A DNA stretch of 21,407 nucleotides. Origin: a virus. The stretch spans positions 1 through 21,407 of IMG/VR virus record IMGVR_UViG_3300020472_000198, one strand, 5' to 3'. Below the pieces are notes generated by a model, which was not told the origin of the DNA, searched no databases, and saw only the letters and a program-made list of their open reading frames with translations. Positions 1,323 through 18,390 of the stretch are shown in pieces (positions within the stretch are counted from its first letter, which is position 1; each line of letters starts with the position of its first letter). The position numbers and the translations under genes were made by a program.

Positions 1323-4300
1323 TTACTCCGTTATCCGTTGTCCAACTTGTTTAAAAATCTGGTAAGGCGCGAGTTTTAGCGCGGACTTCCCGGCAGCATC
1401 AAAGTCTCCATAAACTGCATTTTGACCGACGCCAAACATGTCGGTCATTGTGTTTCCAGACGGTCCAAAGACTAACCCTAATTGAGATGTTTGCTGGGAG
1501 TATCTGGACGGGCGTTCTTTCCAACCCATCGCCGCACCCGCGACATTGTAAATCGACGCGAGAGGGACGGACATAAACATTGAGTATCCACTACGATCTA
1601 GGATGTCGTATGCCCATTGTTGAGGTGAGCGTTCTTTAATCTCACCCGCTCGTAGTATGTCTTTACCAGCAACCACAACGCTTCCAAGGCCAGCTGCAAA
1701 TCCCATCGACATGACAGCTTCCATGTCACCATACGTCATCGGGTTGCCACGCTGTAACGCCGGGACAACAAAACGATTTAGCGTCACGAAACCATACGTC
1801 TGGAACTGCATAAGCATTTTACCCCAGCCCTTCGACATGAAGAGTGGTGTCTCGCCCATACCCGGTGTCATTACGGCTCGCGTAGCTGACCGGCGAAGTG
1901 CAAACATAACGTCATCGTAAGCCTTCTGTCCGATGTCACCTTCGTCTAACCAGCGGCTCATCTCAAGCTCATACACACCGTCCCATTTTTCGGGTGGGTG
2001 TTTAGCCATCATGGCACCAATGCGTTGGACCTGTTCGGTTCCAATGCCGACAGACGCTAGACGAGCGACTTCGAGCTGTGCCTTTTTGTTTCCGGCAGAA
2101 GCCGCCTCGAAAGTCTGGCGATATCGAGCCATTTGGCCGACTAGGTTGTGCTGCATCTCCATCATAGCAAGCGCTTTGAGGCGGGTGTTCCACCAAAGCA
2201 TTCCACTTAGTACGCTGGCTGTATCAGTGAGACCTTGAAAAACACGGTCGGTAGCTGACGTAAGGCCGTGTTTGAGCGAACCGTGTTCGCCTATGCCACT
2301 CATATTCCTAATATCGTCAACATCAGATTTCTTCAGAGTAGCACTGTTGTGTAACACTCGTTCTGACATCAGCGCCATGCGGCGTAGTTCGTCAGAGCGA
2401 AGACCCTTCATCATCTTGCCGGTTTGCGAAATGTTTTTCCAAGTGTACGAATGAAATCCGCTGGTCAACGATACGGTCGCAAGGTCCGTCAGTGACGACA
2501 GGAGGAACCCCGTACCGTATTTGATGAAGTTCCAAGCTCTCAGCTTTTGCATACTCCAGTGGACAAAACTGTCAGGGTCTTCCGGCAGACCATAGCGGCC
2601 CAGCGCTCGATCCCAAGATCCACGAATGTCCGACTCCATCTTATCGCGTTCTTTCTCAAGACGGCGTATGTATCTGTCGGTTAGTCCCCTTTGTCGCGCA
2701 TTAGTAATCATCGAATTGTAGTCGTCTCGAATCTCACGGATCATGTCTTTCGGGTCTTCAGTTCCAAACATCTTCCGGAGAGACAATCGAGCCGCTACGT
2801 CGTCGTGCGCGGAATGCATCACTCCATAGATGTCGTCGCGTAGTAGACCTAAAGTGATAGCCCGACGACGCTCTTCGTTAGACAGAATGATCTTTCGTGA
2901 CTTTGCGCGACCTGTCTCAAAGACTTCGGACTCCAAGATGCCTCGCGGGATTTTGTCTTGTTTACCCAAACGGTCGACAAGGTCTTCGACGTACATATGG
3001 ACAGGTAGTTTCTTTTCAGTTCGACGTAATGATTTTTTCGCCTTTTTGACGTTACGTCGTTGCTTACGAGTGACCTTGTCAGCTTCTTTTCTTAACTGTC
3101 GAATGTTCTTCCGTAGCAAACGGATGTGCTTGATTGCCTCATCAGCTGCGACCACCGCTTCATTTAATCGATCTACTCGTGGATTTAGACGCTCTAGACG
3201 ACGGTCAATCTTATTAGCTTCGCGAGCGAGATTACGCTGCCTCTCTTTTAGACGTTCGAGGGCTCTGGAATACACCGGCTTACTACGAGCTTCGATGACA
3301 GTCGCATTAAGTGCATCTTCGTTCACACGAGCTAGGTCATCGTCTAGTTCCGTCAGCATCGTGCGGGCTGAATCAATATCAGCCACGGGTGCGCCACCCG
3401 GTTCGACCTCTAGCTCATCGAGCAGATCTTCAGCATCTTTAACCTGACCCTGACGTTCTTTGCGATACTTACGTTGCCATTTGCCCGTGTCGTGGAATTC
3501 GTTTAACCGAACATTTTGTTCTTCTTCGAGGCGTCTGATCTCAGTGTCAATTTGTTGCTTCTCGTTCGCTACCTTCTGGCGATTGGCAACAGCACGTTCT
3601 CTCTCAGCTTGACGATACTCCAGCGTCTTCTTAGCTTCTTCGACAGCGGCTTTCCGGTACTCCGTCTCGGATCGGCGTAAGTCACTACCATATTGCATCG
3701 ACCGACGACGAGCGCTTTCAAATTGTGATTCAGCTAATTTTAATTCGAGTTCAGACTGAAGCACCTGTCGATCAAAAGTGTCTCCAGACCATGACTCAAG
3801 AATTTCGTTTTTCTGATCAGCACCACGCTCGATGCTGTAAACCTCATCGCCAATCTTAACTTCTTGGCGCCCCAGCTTCTCGAATTGCTCAAGGGTCATT
3901 TCGAATTGCTCTTCTAAGAACTCGTCTGACGGTTTTCCGAGAAACTTCTCCATGAAGAAACGAACAGCTTCTGCACGTTTAGTTCCCCGCATCGCCCGTG
4001 GGTTCCAGAGTTGCGCGATACCATACTCTCGGCCCATACGTTGGTCCTCTCGGATCATGCCGCTTTCGACCATCCAGTCTTCCATCTTTTCGTTTACAGC
4101 GTGGATGTCTTCGGCCTGTTCCTTCGCAACCTTGATGATCTTTTCGGTCCCTTCGTCACCGAAGCGTCCCTTTAAGTTCTGCACGGTTGCGTCATCGAGA
4201 TCGTCGTGTAGCAGCTTATAGGTTAGGTCTTGAAACTCGAACGCCTCAAAATGTTTACCATCAGCTGGCTCCTCGCCTTTTGGACGAGTGTTTCCACGCG

Positions 4301-10291: not shown

Positions 10292-12606
10292 TATTCTGAC
10301 CTCGTCACTTCATTGAAGAAACCAGAGTAGTCAATACTCGTAATTGTCATAGGCTTCTCCGTAGGGTTTTCGATTTTAATTGTGGCGGTCGCCGCTTCTG
10401 TCTGAATCGGAATGCTGAATGAGCCATGGTCACTGATAGCAGCGGCACCGATGACGTTGTCGGCAGAGCCAATTAGACGCCCGTTGAACGTAAAGACCTG
10501 CTCGTCTCGGAAGGACGGTGTAATCTTCACATTGAAAAATCCGGTATGCTGAAAGTTCACTTGAACACGTTTCAGCTGAAATCGACCTGACGTAATCGTT
10601 CGCTGAGTGTTTGTTGCATCACGCACAAACAACTTGCTCAATTGTACAGACTGAGTGAAGGGCTGACCTACGATTGCCACACCGCCCGAAAGATCACCGT
10701 TTGCGGTTATTGTCGTTGTAGTCGGGTAGGTGACGTTAAGTCGTTCTCCAACTTGTCCAGCTGGAAAGTCCGTCGATAAAATAACAGCGGCAGTTGAGCC
10801 ATGAAGATATGGTGTTGTCCAAGTTGTCGTGTCAGCTGCGCTGTCGTGTACGCCGGTCAGTGGAACTTGTTGATCAACACAAATCTGATACGGATGCTTG
10901 TCATCTGACAATTCATAACGAAGTTCTGATTTTTCTAGAAATGTCTGAGTTCCCCGAGTGACCATCATGTACAGGTCGCCCTCGATGACATGCATCCAGT
11001 GTATGTGGACGCTTGTGTCACCGTAGTCCCAACAGTGCCAAGCTGACTGAGCTTTCCGTTCAGCCTCGATGTACATCTTGTAGCAGTAGATCCGACTGTG
11101 GTCTTTCGATGACAAGAGAAACAGCATGTCATTCGTCGGATCGCCTGACATGCGAATGATCGGGGCAGGGACGTAGCCCAGCGCATGAAGCGTAATGTCG
11201 CTCGCCGTATTCGACAGCGTCTCATCGTCGTACTTATATTCGTAGATCAGTGCGTCTTTGCCGGACTTAGCTGCGAAGTAAAGGGTGTTTCCTAAGTTGA
11301 AAGGACGACACAAGATTTCTGTTAGGTAGGTTGTCGTAAGGTCGACTGTGGCGTTCTCGGCAATAAGCGTGTCTTCACCAGAGACTTCAAATTGGTTTTT
11401 GTCACTCGTCAGAAAGAGAGCTTTACGAAACGGGTGCGCGTGTTTCAGAAGATTAACTTCGGCACCGCTCGCCGTCAGACCAAAGCCGTCACTGTCGAGC
11501 GACTGAGTCGAGAAGTCCGGCCAAAATGTGAAGTACTTACCAGACTGAGAAAAGAAGACAGTCTCGCCCGCCACGATACCAAATCGGTTTCGGTGGAAAA
11601 CCACCGCCTCAACTTTATTATCTACGAAGTCGGGTTTTGGGGAAGTGTCGACATCTCCAGCTAGTCGACCGGCGTAGGTGCCTTTTTTGAAGATGAAAGT
11701 CCCATCGGCTTGGCGGTCAAGCCAGTGTGGCATCGTCGTATCGGTGAAGTCATTATCCGCAAACGGATCGGCGGTCTCTACCCACCCGCCGTCCGCATTG
11801 CTAAATTTAGCCCAGTAGCCTAACTCGTTTCCGTCAATAGTTGCGCCGACGCGGATTAAATATCCGTCAGGTGCAACCGGCGGCAGATGCGTTCGCTTTG
11901 CCACATTCTGTCTCATACTGATCGGGCCATATGTATCGTCTGAGCCGGTGTGTCCGATGGTGAACGTAGTAGAGTTTTCGATGATCAGCGTTGTATCATC
12001 TCGCGTAATCGAAAAACCACCGGGCAAACTAATGCTACTCATAATGTCGGATGCGAGTCCGGTAGCGGACAGAGCAGAGCCGCTATGCGTGTAAACTGAA
12101 CTCCCGTTTATTGTGATTGAGTAAGCCGTGTCGTTGTTGGTTGTCTTACAATAGATCAGCGCTTTGAAGGGACTTTCGACATACGTCGAAGTTGCCATCG
12201 TCACTGTGATGGTGCTGTTTCCGATAATCGTTCGGTCAGCGATTGTTACAGCTGAGAAACTCGCGCCGGGGTCCGACGCCGTGAGATACGATTTGCCATC
12301 TGGAAATGTGACGGTTTTCTCGACACCGCCCAAGTCGTAGACTTTCAGATCACCTCCCTTCACGCAGATGATATATTTCTCGGAAGCATCTCTAGCGTAA
12401 CTGTAAATAAACGGCTTATCGGATGCTCCAGTGATAAACGTATTTTCAGCAATGTGTCTGGTTGCTGGTCGACTTTCGAATCCACCAGTGACAACTGACA
12501 TTAGTACGTTAGTAGCTTCTTGAACCTGTCCCGGCAGTCGTACAGCGTCGGGCTGTCGAGAGACGCCCTGATATAGCGTCTTGATCGATTGTTCTAAAAG
12601 CGTCAT
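10291..12606 (-). CDS. Tail tubular protein B (T7 gp12-like, nozzle)
   Basis: A 771-residue protein with the characteristic opening MTLLEQSIKTLYQGVSRQPD followed by AVRLPGQVQEATN, the hallmark of the gp12 nozzle family (T7 gp12 is 794 aa). The protein is rich in beta-forming residues throughout. Six copies are expected to form the tail nozzle below the gp11 ring and to bind the fibres. I chose the ATG at 12606 because its ATGA overlap with the gp11-like stop matches the junction style of its neighbours and the family motif begins there. The open frame extends upstream to 12648, but the extra 14 residues (MLLCNTPKPCACGS) overlap the gp11 coding end and do not look like part of the family. Confidence 0.92.
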   Translation of the reverse strand: MTLLEQSIKTLYQGVSRQPDAVRLPGQVQEATNVLMSVVTGGFESRPATRHIAENTFITGASDKPFIYSYARDASEKYIICVKGGDLKVYDLGGVEKTVTFPDGKSYLTASDPGASFSAVTIADRTIIGNSTITVTMATSTYVESPFKALIYCKTTNNDTAYSITINGSSVYTHSGSALSATGLASDIMSSISLPGGFSITRDDTTLIIENSTTFTIGHTGSDDTYGPISMRQNVAKRTHLPPVAPDGYLIRVGATIDGNELGYWAKFSNADGGWVETADPFADNDFTDTTMPHWLDRQADGTFIFKKGTYAGRLAGDVDTSPKPDFVDNKVEAVVFHRNRFGIVAGETVFFSQSGKYFTFWPDFSTQSLDSDGFGLTASGAEVNLLKHAHPFRKALFLTSDKNQFEVSGEDTLIAENATVDLTTTYLTEILCRPFNLGNTLYFAAKSGKDALIYEYKYDDETLSNTASDITLHALGYVPAPIIRMSGDPTNDMLFLLSSKDHSRIYCYKMYIEAERKAQSAWHCWDYGDTSVHIHWMHVIEGDLYMMVTRGTQTFLEKSELRYELSDDKHPYQICVDQQVPLTGVHDSAADTTTWTTPYLHGSTAAVILSTDFPAGQVGERLNVTYPTTTTITANGDLSGGVAIVGQPFTQSVQLSKLFVRDATNTQRTITSGRFQLKRVQVNFQHTGFFNVKITPSFRDEQVFTFNGRLIGSADNVIGAAAISDHGSFSIPIQTEAATATIKIENPTEKPMTITSIDYSGFFNEVTRSE

Positions 12607-13202
12607 CGACCCGCAAGCACATGGTTTCGGTGTGTTGCATAAAAGCAATGCGCGTTGTCGAGCAGTATATTGCTGTCTTCATTCTCGCACTCGCTGTCCA
12701 TCAGAGCAGCATATGCTTCCATCTCAGCTCGTACTGTAAAGTTATCGAGCGCAGCTGATTGCATCTGAGCTTCTTGGAATTTACGAGCCGCTCGATACGC
12801 GATGTAATTAGATAGCTCTAGTGTCAGATCCTCGAAATCGAGCAACAGAATTACGTCACAATAGAGATTAGTTTTGAACTCGTAGCTCTGGTTGATCACA
12901 TCGTATAACATGAAACTATTATTGAATTTACGAACACTGACATTCGTAGCTTTTGACGACTGCGTTGTGTCGACACGTAGATATGTTGCGGGAACCAAAA
13001 TATTCTTATTCGTGTCAGGGATTAACTTGAGATTTTTCTCGGTATTCTGATGCCAACCTTTGGACAACACAGTCTTATGGATTTCGTTAAGTTTGGTCTC
13101 GGCAGCTTCGGCATCGGGCAGACCAGAGTCGAGAGATGATACTGGCGTCTCACCGATACCATCGAGGATGATATTCACAGCCTCAAGTTTGGATAAGCCC
13201 AT
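12603..13202 (-). CDS. Tail tubular protein A (T7 gp11-like, gatekeeper)
   Basis: A 199-residue protein, nearly the same length as T7 gp11 (196 aa). The opening MGLSKLEAVNIILDGIGETP and the following LHE-like segment with VLSKGWHQNTEKN are diagnostic of the tail tube A family. Later segments (ELSNYIAYRAARKFQEAQ) also fit. Twelve copies form the ring that links the portal to the nozzle. It is the first gene after the strong terminator behind the major capsid gene, and its ribosome site (GAGG, 5 bases before the ATG) lies directly after the terminator T-run. Its expression therefore depends on read-through of that terminator or on a start site I could not identify. The stop overlaps the tube B start as ATGA. 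Confidence 0.93.
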   Translation of the reverse strand: MGLSKLEAVNIILDGIGETPVSSLDSGLPDAEAAETKLNEIHKTVLSKGWHQNTEKNLKLIPDTNKNILVPATYLRVDTTQSSKATNVSVRKFNNSFMLYDVINQSYEFKTNLYCDVILLLDFEDLTLELSNYIAYRAARKFQEAQMQSAALDNFTVRAEMEAYAALMDSECENEDSNILLDNAHCFYATHRNHVLAGR

Positions 13203-13212
13203 TATTCCTCAC

Positions 13213-13260
13213 AAAAAAAATCAGAGTACCGAGGGGTACACTCAAGTACCCCTCAGTCTC
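13213..13260 (-). terminator. Intrinsic terminator after the major capsid gene
   Basis: On the minus strand GAGGGGTAC, a 6-base loop TTGAGT, and GTACCCCTC form a perfect 9-bp stem. The stem can be lengthened by ACT/GGT pairing (one G-T wobble) and then GAG/CTC across a bulged A. TGA and eight T residues follow. It lies 17 bases after the capsid stop codon and corresponds in position to T-phi, the terminator behind T7 gene 10. Confidence 0.93.
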
Positions 13261-13277
13261 AAAGTTGCCGATTGGCG

Positions 13278-14270
13278 TTATGCGGATTTCGCGACGTAAG
13301 CCATTTCCGGACGGAGAATTCCGTGACCGACAAACATCTTACTAACGAGAAAATCCTCAAGTCGCCGAACGTCACGCTCGGTCTCCATCGAGATATCGAG
13401 CATTTTCACAGTGGCGACCGACTGGGGACACCACATCACGAGAGCGGTGTTCGAGAAGTTCGCCCGGTACTTACTGAAGACAGCGGTGTTAGACGAGTCA
13501 TCAGCTGTTGGGATGTGACGAGATTTAACAATGGTTACGCCGTCGATATTCATCGATTCGGCACGACCATCAACACCACCAGCGCCACCGTGACCAAAGT
13601 CTCGGTTTAGGACGAGATAATTATTTGTCGCATCCTTGGCATATTTAATGGCATCAAAGACCTCTACGCTGACAGCCGCATATCGCGGCATGTCTTCGGG
13701 GATATCTTTGTTAAACAACGCAATGTTCGCTGTCCGTATTGCTTCAATGTAAGCAACACCAGAGAACACACCGCCCGAAGCCGCAAGGTCCGTGTCGGTG
13801 ACGGTTGTGCCACCGGGAAACGGCGATGCCGCTGCTTGCGCTGCCGACAATACCATTTGTCGGAATACGTTTTGGTCGAACACTTTTGCAAGCGCACGTC
13901 CCATTTCTTTCGCAATTATGGAACGCATGTCCCAGTGAGAAAGAATACGGTCGAGATCACTGATCGCGTAGTGTGACACAAGAATGTCGTCTACGGTGAT
14001 CACCTGTTCACTAGTTGAAAGGTCATTACCTAATAACTCAGTGCCGGGAGTGTGATACTCAGCTGATGCTTTCCAAGTTTTTGGAAAGCGGAAGGACTTC
14101 GCGCCACCCGCTACGGATTTTACGAAGTGTTTGTCCAGAGTTACGGTCGAGGAATCAAACGCAGTCAGAACTTCTCCACCAAAGACCGAAAGGAAAAGTT
14201 CACGATTGTCGACTGGGGATGATGCACCCTTACCGAAACGGACTGGACTACTGGCGTCTCCTGTTGCCAT
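13278..14270 (-). CDS. Major capsid protein (T7 gp10-like)
   Basis: A 330-residue protein in the expected place between scaffold and tail tube A (T7 gp10A is 345 aa). Family features include ELFLSVFGGEVLTAFDSSTV near the N-terminus, SFRFPKTWKASAEYHTPGTE, the segment VDDILVSHYAISDLDRILSH, and the C-terminal VGHGILRPEMAYVAK. It forms the HK97-fold shell. The start at 14270 has GGAG 6 bases upstream. This is the only gene in the window with real non-coding DNA on both sides, and an intrinsic terminator lies in each gap. It ends with a single TAA and I see no slippery site that would give a longer minor form like T7 gp10B. Confidence 0.95.
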   Translation of the reverse strand: MATGDASSPVRFGKGASSPVDNRELFLSVFGGEVLTAFDSSTVTLDKHFVKSVAGGAKSFRFPKTWKASAEYHTPGTELLGNDLSTSEQVITVDDILVSHYAISDLDRILSHWDMRSIIAKEMGRALAKVFDQNVFRQMVLSAAQAAASPFPGGTTVTDTDLAASGGVFSGVAYIEAIRTANIALFNKDIPEDMPRYAAVSVEVFDAIKYAKDATNNYLVLNRDFGHGGAGGVDGRAESMNIDGVTIVKSRHIPTADDSSNTAVFSKYRANFSNTALVMWCPQSVATVKMLDISMETERDVRRLEDFLVSKMFVGHGILRPEMAYVAKSA

Positions 14271-14374
14271 AATTTCTCCAGTTCAAAGGTTAAGGTTTGG
14301 TTGCCGTTCGCCTCGCCGTCCGATTATCAGCCGTAGCCGGGTCTTAGGATTGGGTTTGGGCAGAAGTCTCCCAC
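14271..14374 (-). promoter_or_regulatory. Capsid gene leader, presumed to hold a promoter
   Basis: This non-coding DNA lies between a strong terminator and the capsid start, so a new transcript probably begins here. The only motif I can point to is GATAAT (14323-14328 on the minus strand), five of six matches to a bacterial -10 box, but there is no convincing -35 box at 17 bases. A phage-specific promoter cannot be recognised from one example. The ribosome site CTGGAGAAATT precedes the ATG. Confidence 0.35.
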
Positions 14375-14414
14375 AAAAAGAGGGCGAAAGTAGCTCGCAG
14401 TGCTACTCTCGCCC
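14375..14414 (-). terminator. Intrinsic terminator between scaffold and capsid genes
   Basis: On the minus strand GGGCGAGAGTAGC, loop ACTGCGA, and GCTACTTTCGCCC form a 13-bp stem with a single G-T wobble. TCTTTTT follows at once. It begins 24 bases after the scaffold stop codon. The T7 genome has no terminator at this point. Confidence 0.93.
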
Positions 14415-14438
14415 ATAGGTGCAGAGGGAGGGCTGCAA

Positions 14439-15290
14439 CTATTCAAAATTCTCGATTGTGTCTAAGTCCCACGTTGCGAGTGCCATCTTTTGCATCACGC
14501 TCTGTCGGAATGATGCGTCTGTCGAATATTGAGGACTCATCATGTCCGCTTTCATTTCACTCTTTGAGCGATAACCAACAGCGGAATTAGCGACCACTTG
14601 GTCACCTTGGATAAACTGTGGTTCTGTCTGTGCAGTTGACGGACCCATTCGACTGTTGATGGCATCCATTGCCAATCGCCAATCGGGTCCGTCGAGCATT
14701 CGATTAACCCCAGCAACCTCTGTTTCATTCATATTTTCAGCGGCCCAGCTGGCCATTTTTGTCCAGTTTTCCTCACCACCCACATACTCGAAAGCAGCTT
14801 TTCGCTCGCCTTGAATGCGATATTGGAGGTTTTCGATGTAGCTGCGAGCCATCTGTTCGGGTATTCCGACCTTGGTCAACGCCTCGTAATCTTCGGCCTC
14901 TAAGTCCCCGTTATCTCGGAGTTTGGCTTCGAGTGTTGCTGGATCGAGGCCAGCTTTCGCGACAATATCAAGCGCTGAGTCGTCGTCGGACTCGTCTTGC
15001 TTCTTGACTTCCAATTTCGCGATTTCTTCGTCATCAGGAGTTTCTTCCTGTTTCGGGCGTCCGTTTGCATTAAACTGAAGCTCTTTCGCGTGGCTTTCCC
15101 AGTCATAAGCTCCGGTCTCGGCATTATAAAATTTCTCCTGACCACCCTCCGGCATTGGAACAATCGGAACCTCGTCAGGCAGTTCAGTGTCTGGCTGACT
15201 TGGGTTATTAAATTTTTCAGCCATTTGCTGATTGTATTCGTCCGACCCCGGTACAGGATCTTGAGCCGTATCTGCAATAAGCTCACTCAT
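14439..15290 (-). CDS. Capsid scaffolding protein (T7 gp9-like)
   Basis: A 283-residue, strongly acidic protein between portal and major capsid genes (T7 gp9 is 307 aa). The N-terminal half is rich in Asp, Glu, Pro and Gln and looks disordered (DEVPIVPMPEGGQEKFYNAE is typical). The middle is helical, with GIPEQMARSYIENLQYRIQG and the segment EYVGGEENWTKMASWAAENM, both recurrent in T7-like scaffolds. The protein should direct shell assembly around the portal and then leave the capsid. It starts with a TGATG overlap on the portal stop, and a strong terminator follows its TAG stop. Confidence 0.9.
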   Translation of the reverse strand: MSELIADTAQDPVPGSDEYNQQMAEKFNNPSQPDTELPDEVPIVPMPEGGQEKFYNAETGAYDWESHAKELQFNANGRPKQEETPDDEEIAKLEVKKQDESDDDSALDIVAKAGLDPATLEAKLRDNGDLEAEDYEALTKVGIPEQMARSYIENLQYRIQGERKAAFEYVGGEENWTKMASWAAENMNETEVAGVNRMLDGPDWRLAMDAINSRMGPSTAQTEPQFIQGDQVVANSAVGYRSKSEMKADMMSPQYSTDASFRQSVMQKMALATWDLDTIENFE

Positions 15291-18000: not shown

Positions 18001-18190
18001 TGATTTGCTCCTCAAGGAGACCTTTAAGCTCATCAATAAGCTGACGTATTCCAGCGTAGCGCTGGTGTTCCTCTTCGCTTTCGCCAAGTAGCTTACATCG
18101 TGGTGGATACGCCGTGTCCAATCGATCAATTAAGTGTGATGACTGAACGGGTACAAGTTGATCTTCGAGTATCAGATCGTCATTACTCAT
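17990..18190 (-). CDS. Small acidic protein of unknown function
   Basis: A 66-residue protein that I cannot assign to a named family. The N-terminus is acidic (MSNDDLILEDQ). The middle, AYPPRCKLLGESEEEHQRYA, looks like a conserved core, and the end, GIRQLIDELKGLLEEQI, is an amphipathic helix suited to dimerisation or partner binding. It is translationally linked on both sides, with an ATGA overlap on the small zinc protein and an 11-base overlap into the GNAT gene. Its 3' end supplies the GAGGAG ribosome site for the GNAT gene. The real coding status is supported by the tight overlaps and by residues that look constrained. Confidence 0.7.
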   Translation of the reverse strand: MSNDDLILEDQLVPVQSSHLIDRLDTAYPPRCKLLGESEEEHQRYAGIRQLIDELKGLLEEQINGS

Positions 18191-18390
18191 GGGCAGAAGC
18201 CCTGCGTATTACTAATAGCTTGCGCGATTTGCTTGTACTCTTTCGTTTTTTTACAGTTACGACAGACTCGATTGTGACTTCCTTCAGATCGAAATTCCGA
18301 ACGACACTTCAGACACTTACGTGACTTTTGAAGGTACTGGAGATCGCTGGAGCTTGGTTTCGAATAGTACTTCATGTTTTCTTTAGGCAT
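18187..18390 (-). CDS. Small zinc-ribbon protein (CX2C-X13-CX2C)
   Basis: A 67-residue basic protein with C26-x2-C29 and C43-x2-C46 (SRKCLKCRSEFRSEG, then NRVCRNCKK), a four-cysteine zinc-binding knuckle pair. Flanking Lys and Arg suggest nucleic-acid binding, though the target is unknown. It begins 5 bases after the RNR stop. A second in-frame ATG at residue 6 is possible, and neither start has a strong ribosome site. The stop overlaps the next start as ATGA. A transcription-related role at the change from early to late genes is possible, but nothing in the sequence proves it. Confidence 0.75.
   Translation of the reverse strand: MPKENMKYYSKPSSSDLQYLQKSRKCLKCRSEFRSEGSHNRVCRNCKKTKEYKQIAQAISNTQGFCP

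Follow-up and report, generated by a model that had tools for sequence, protein, structure and literature searches.

Terminator-like hairpins and a conserved leader RNA hairpin at the capsid gene of a T7-like phage

Few kinds of phage are as common in the sea as the T7-like ones, whose capsid requires hundreds of copies of one protein and few of its neighbours. The locus described here raises the question of whether the capsid gene, which lies within the late operon, could be an expression unit of its own, and which elements around it could act on its expression. The window, i.e., the whole stretch of DNA analysed, is the 21,407-base IMG/VR record IMGVR_UViG_3300020472_000198, which belongs to a T7-like phage and is coded on the minus strand. 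In the coding direction, the end of the DNA polymerase gene, an exonuclease gene and a ribonucleotide reductase gene are followed by the portal, scaffold and capsid genes, then by those of the tail tubes and internal virion proteins and, finally, of the tail fibre.

Hairpins on either side of the capsid gene

The major capsid protein gene (13278..14270, minus strand; 330 aa) is of the T7 gp10 type (PHROG 267, major head protein, E 1e-58) and has scaffold, portal and tail tube genes as neighbours. The scaffold gene (14439..15290, minus strand; PHROG 1052, head assembly) lies upstream of the capsid unit and the tail tubular protein A gene (12603..13202, minus strand; PHROG 446, tail protein) downstream of it, while a Shine-Dalgarno-like GGAG (14276..14279, minus strand) precedes the capsid start codon in the sequence. 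The capsid protein has matches in 1336 phage records; its nearest cultured relatives are just 34-40% identical, and its IMG/VR relatives 58-94%. As stated by the original prediction, the only non-coding gaps of the window, when stretches of more than 5 nt between annotated ORFs are counted, are the two that flank this gene, at 13203-13277 (75 nt) and 14271-14438 (168 nt).

Each gap was also predicted to hold a strong minus-strand hairpin with a T-run, and this is the case, with energies of -24.5 kcal/mol for the upstream hairpin and -26.8 kcal/mol for the downstream one. The upstream element (14374..14414, minus strand) has a 13-bp stem at 14414-14382 with a 7-nt loop, followed by TCTTTTTG. 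The downstream element (13213..13260, minus strand), which is placed like T-phi of T7, has a 12-bp stem at 13257-13228, extended by a GAG/CTC pairing to about 13260-13224, and is followed by TGA and by eight T at 13220-13213. At both sites, a G+C-rich stem thus runs directly into a T-run on the transcribed strand, as in intrinsic (Rho-independent) terminators. None of 500 dinucleotide-preserving shuffles matched the hairpin energy of either gap. The two hairpins are the top coding-strand terminator-like sites of the window, about 9 kcal/mol ahead of any other, and they also rank first in a scan with a wider terminator pattern, which returned 32 sites vs. 19.5 expected.

The two elements differ in their distribution. 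The downstream one, which stands directly after the capsid gene as in T7-type capsid units, is found at all 43 loci with an intact gap, window included, and in 42/53 capsid clusters (80% identity) vs. 1/53 after shuffling. The upstream one is retained in all ten close relatives (81-94% capsid identity, gap intact), so that the comparison across relatives sustains this part of the original prediction. It lies there 101-115 nt before the capsid start, the distance in one relative, L021, being corrected for a capsid-gene intron in this count and in that of the leader spacing. Its stems are very different in sequence from one close relative to another and its place is unchanged; where stems can be aligned, pairing is retained in 6 of 7 substituted pairs. 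In a clade of 75% identity (L012-L019) the hairpin is weaker (-13 kcal/mol) and more distant (197-199 nt upstream), and it was not found in the clade of 58-62% identity. Among T7-like capsid clusters, an upstream terminator occurs in 5/56 vs. 3/56 after shuffling, i.e., no more often than by chance. On these counts, an upstream terminator was discarded as a trait of T7-like phages at large, and the original contrast with T7 holds, as the downstream terminator alone is general. The putative upstream terminator is clade-specific, weaker in the sister clade and rare elsewhere, and it is not essential, since most T7-like phages do without it. As CRP-403 and Pasto also carry one when inspected by eye, it probably has more than one origin.

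The capsid genes of two relatives are interrupted. That of L021, an 85%-identity relative, contains a group I intron after residue 70 (L021:2885-3105; Rfam RF00028, 57.4 bits), and that of L225 an insertion of about 500 nt after residue 55 (L225:3166-3672), which has no Rfam intron match.

The T7 stem-loop terminator does not halt the RNA polymerase of Syn5, a marine T7-like phage; from one of only two phage promoters, this enzyme is reported to transcribe over 37 kb (PMC3950665). Because the Syn5 enzyme ignores the T7 terminator, the T-run hairpins of the window may not terminate transcription here, and they may work on the host polymerase or as RNA 3'-end structures. The Syn5 data thus favour an alternative in which the late region would be one long transcript, trimmed around the capsid gene, and the flanking hairpins would above all mark out or shield the 3' ends of the processed mRNA. 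The presence of tRNA genes, which are processing sites, in the same gap of several relatives points the same way. Processing hairpins, however, do not need the T-runs that follow both stems, and the upstream hairpin is tightly coupled to the repeated promoter-like motif described below, so that we regard this alternative as rather unlikely, though a serious contender.

A candidate phage promoter after the upstream hairpin

With transcripts stopped ahead of it, the capsid gene was predicted to need a promoter of its own at 14271-14374. A candidate phage RNA polymerase promoter, GACTTCTGCCCA, is present in this interval (14357..14368, minus strand). Its core, (G/A)CTTCTGCC at 14359-14367, lies directly 3' of the upstream T-run; in each of the close relatives, the same core follows the upstream terminator directly and is invariant, while the adjoining terminator stems diverge. 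In the 75%-identity clade, the order of T-run then promoter motif is retained. A search for a motif shared with this region, as proposed with the prediction, found two other sites on the same strand: GGCTTCTGCCCA (18190..18201, minus strand), before the structural gene block, and GGCTTCTGCCGG (2092..2103, minus strand), inside the gene of a 1395-aa internal virion protein. Copies of the core occupy matching places on the coding strand of relatives. The third copy covers the codons GCT TCT GCC, which are invariant in 9/9 genomes in spite of a protein identity of down to 43%, and selection therefore acts on the DNA sequence itself.

The core is short (8-10 bp), and one antisense copy is also present in the window. 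The repeats of GACTTCTGCC could thus be chance or coding matches, all the more so as one copy lies within a coding sequence and as the core is found over the records in 9 antisense copies against about 28 sense ones, a count in which one record, G009, carried a wrong label. This explanation is unlikely, given that the motif recurs at the same positions in many genomes, that the synonymous bases of its third site do not vary among the nine genomes and that it stays constant beside an upstream terminator whose stems diverge. A repeated, strand-coherent, promoter-like motif lies in the interval in which the original prediction placed the capsid promoter. No candidate promoter lies between the capsid gene and window position 2103, in line with the expectation that the tail genes would depend on read-through. 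A sigma-70 scan of the window gave no host-type promoter signal (12 matches vs. 19.5 expected).

In a more distant clade, the repeated motif is another one, GCGCTCGTGAGAA, which lies before the capsid gene and near the other end of the late region. Its coding-strand copies (G013:21640 and 40368; G014:26768 and 7636) are found 20-35 nt before the leader hairpin described in the next section and once more elsewhere, and the motif is likely a promoter of different specificity. The window, being a fragment, does not contain an RNA polymerase gene, and four long relatives encode a T7-type enzyme (PF00940, E about 1e-83 to 1e-86). In two of these, the match falls in a 440-aa frame (G013:5194-6375 and G014:41720-42901) vs. 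835 aa in G011 and G012, and the gene may be split or interrupted there.

A covarying RNA hairpin in the capsid leader

Between the promoter motif and the ribosome site, alignment of the leaders reveals a further block, which was missed by the original prediction and is a more unusual feature than the terminators: broadly conserved, and independent of them. In the window it reads GA-CC-[CGGC-UACG-GCUG]-AUAA-UC (14321..14345, minus strand). The hairpin, of 24-25 nt, consists of a covarying 4-bp stem closed by a YNMG tetraloop, a C/AYAA internal loop and a covarying outer helix, according to the pattern X2X1-C-[4 bp]-YNMG-[4 bp]-AYAA-Z1Z2, where X pairs with Z. It is present once per locus in the window and in all 46 relatives in which the leader is present. 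As MAFFT misaligned the GACC and GAC forms, the covariance models were based on the GAC form, with the sequences re-aligned by covariance model. The window copy, scored with a model (R2) built from a set that excluded the window, reaches 18.8 bits (E 0.0011), a lower score due to the extra C of the window clade.

The pairing was assessed in two ways. When leaders were found by the unpaired anchors and the YNMG form, stem pairing not being part of the search, the four inner pairs were complete in 66/70 distinct leaders, with 29 different stems, vs. 7/213 elsewhere. The loops seen, TGCG, TACG, TGAG, CACG, TAAG, CAAG and CGAG, are all of the YNMG form that was part of the search anchor. In a set of 71 sequences fitted to the structure, 98.8% of cells are paired, each of the six pairs varies in both of its bases, and covariation scores 0.933 vs. 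0.256 after shuffling (0/500), slid partners giving at most 0.17; the fitting favours pairing in this alignment, a bias from which the anchor-only test is free. Stem wobbles comprise 12 G-U and no A-C pairs, which indicates that the element is read as sense-strand RNA. No Rfam 15 family matches it in the window at gathering score, a relaxed threshold gave nothing relevant for the window gap and four relatives, and no description of the element was found in the open-licence literature.

With covariance models, roughly 80 of 100 diverse capsid sources show a single good match on the coding strand, at most 200 nt before the capsid gene, the best off-target match over 673 kb being of 14.2 bits. 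The hairpin precedes the capsid gene in most of the T7-like phages sampled outside Studiervirinae, among them HTVC019P, CRP-114, HTVC200P, CRP-403, HTVC011P, mycobacteriophage jiawei, Rhizobium TRX32-1, Pasto, P-SCSP1d and P-SSP7. Syn5 has it before its capsid gene as GAG-C-CCGA-UACG-UCGG-ACAA-CUC (31 bits), and LUZ100 and S2B have weak variants. It was not found in T7, gh-1, a Vibrio ICP3-type phage, KpV289, SP6, phiKMV or JG068; T7, SP6, phiKMV and their relatives manage without it. In two scans for the motif alone, which took no account of the capsid gene, 2.9 million viral contigs gave at least 177 matches. Among the matches listed, the stem is fully paired in 170/177; a T7-like capsid gene lies directly downstream in 167 of these 170, the other three being too short to tell, and none of the seven unpaired matches has a capsid gene at that place. 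The orientation is always sense and the spacing to the capsid start codon is constant.

Several other observations were made on these leaders. Syn5 contains a second, weak match of 17.8 bits (L501 W01:16560-16583) in the ribonucleotide reductase gene before the portal gene, possibly by chance. A tRNA gene (Asn, Tyr, Ser, Ile or Thr) is present in the capsid leader of L051 (5619-5694), L063, L087, L092, L103, L206, L216 and L225, upstream of the leader hairpin wherever the latter is found, and processing by RNase P/Z at this tRNA could set the 5' end of the capsid mRNA. In Pelagibacter/Roseobacter phage leaders (L260, L263 and L050), another hairpin that may be conserved is seen by eye 40-60 nt before the YNMG one, e.g., AGTTG-TGCA-ACCT-ACTT-AGGT-GG-CAACT. 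Mimicry of a host RNA was considered and rejected: the strongest matches in 12 bacterial genomes are phage capsid leaders, the weaker, leftover ones score 18.6-23 bits, and no recurring host site was seen.

As to its role, the hairpin is common to clades with different promoter motifs and to most phages without an upstream terminator, and it occurs in Syn5, where neither of the two phage promoters is near the capsid gene. Being shared across promoter types and present in Syn5, it appears to be neither a promoter nor tied to local transcription starts, and its occurrence in a phage with two reported promoters suggests that it probably acts after transcription. The hairpin has a fixed sense orientation and a constant spacing to the start codon, and its unpaired bases are strongly conserved, all of which speaks for an mRNA element that is recognised by something. 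Most likely, judging from these features, it would be read by a protein and would raise the stability or translation of the capsid mRNA, or regulate it; a generic protection of the 5' end would be a less specific form of this idea. Our tentative view, to which we give a little less than an even chance, is that the hairpin represents an RNA operator specific to the capsid gene and not described before. Most T7-like phages that belong neither to Studiervirinae nor to the phiKMV/SP6-type groups would have inherited it, and a protein would read it and thereby set the processing, stability or translation of the capsid mRNA. In the window clade, this leader would later have gained its upstream terminator and local promoter.

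Two other roles can be weighed against this mRNA element. Since the gene that follows it on the transcript has a terminator at its end in most lineages, the hairpin might be a transcription element, such as a put- or boxB-like antitermination signal allowing the downstream terminator to be passed. This is very unlikely, because among the matches listed in the motif scans it precedes no other gene or terminator, and because single-subunit polymerases are not known to make use of put- or boxB-like signals. An action as single-stranded DNA, e.g., as a packaging signal, an origin of replication or a hairpin promoter of the N4 type, would suit a small, single-copy element of the main non-coding gap and is nevertheless highly improbable, as the 12 G-U and no A-C pairs point to sense-strand RNA, the element invariably stands shortly before the capsid start and in the coding orientation, one and the same hairpin is found in clades whose promoter-like motifs differ, and Syn5 has no phage promoter there. 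The hairpin itself as a phage promoter was rejected, as it is single-copy in each genome while a different motif repeats; unlike the hairpin promoters of N4 virion RNA polymerase, it is found once per genome and only before the capsid gene.

The capsid gene as a possible expression unit

The elements that surround the capsid gene are ordered as terminator, phage promoter, structured leader, ribosome site, capsid gene and terminator, in so far as their predicted functions hold. On balance, we lean towards the capsid gene being its own expression unit within the late operon, with a leader hairpin acting in cis on its mRNA. Transcripts started before the structural block, which carry portal and scaffold, would mostly end at the upstream hairpin, with a new start by the phage RNA polymerase some 10 nt beyond it, at the GACTTCTGCC motif. 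The resulting short capsid mRNA would end mostly at the downstream hairpin, and the tail genes would be fed by read-through. On the capsid mRNA, the leader hairpin would most likely increase stability or translation through recognition by a protein. The insulated capsid gene of the original prediction is thus upheld in part: the paired hairpins, the conservation of the upstream one and the promoter-like motif bear it out, whereas the hairpins are terminators by their sequence only.

This arrangement is reminiscent of known phages. The T7 capsid unit is made of the phi10 promoter, the gene 10 leader stem-loop, gene 10 and the T-phi terminator, and it resembles the window in the order of its genes, in the structured leader and in the place of the downstream terminator and of a local promoter, the latter a candidate in the window; it differs in having neither an upstream terminator nor a YNMG/AYAA leader hairpin, and its promoter is unrelated to the candidate of the window. 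In Pseudomonas phage LUZ100, ONT-cappable-seq has mapped a local capsid promoter and a strong downstream terminator (PMC10134795). As predicted for the window, LUZ100 has a phage-specific promoter upstream and a terminator just downstream, and mapped 3' ends (T13-T15) also lie upstream of its capsid gene; a tRNA gene is however interposed, and the leader element is weak and elongated (15.3-15.5 bits). For Burkholderia phage JG068, three predicted phage promoters, before the structural block, the capsid gene and the tail fibre gene, and a terminator after the capsid gene have been described (PMC3765740), which is the layout of the three candidate promoters and the downstream terminator-like hairpin of the window. 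A phage promoter is predicted before the capsid gene in both phiKMV and JG068, but neither has an annotated upstream terminator and the leader motif was not found in them. Syn5 shares the leader hairpin and differs by its two phage promoters, both remote from the capsid gene.

The cassette of terminator, promoter, leader, gene and terminator would be a compact, natural, insulated expression unit. In phages such as Syn5, whose polymerase has almost no internal promoters, the leader hairpin could provide a sequence handle on how capsid is overproduced. Finally, the finding of a single-copy, covarying, capsid-linked RNA in phages of Pelagibacter, Roseobacter, rhizobia, cyanobacteria, Pseudomonas and mycobacteria suggests that they share a so far unrecognised control of capsid dosage, exerted on the mRNA.
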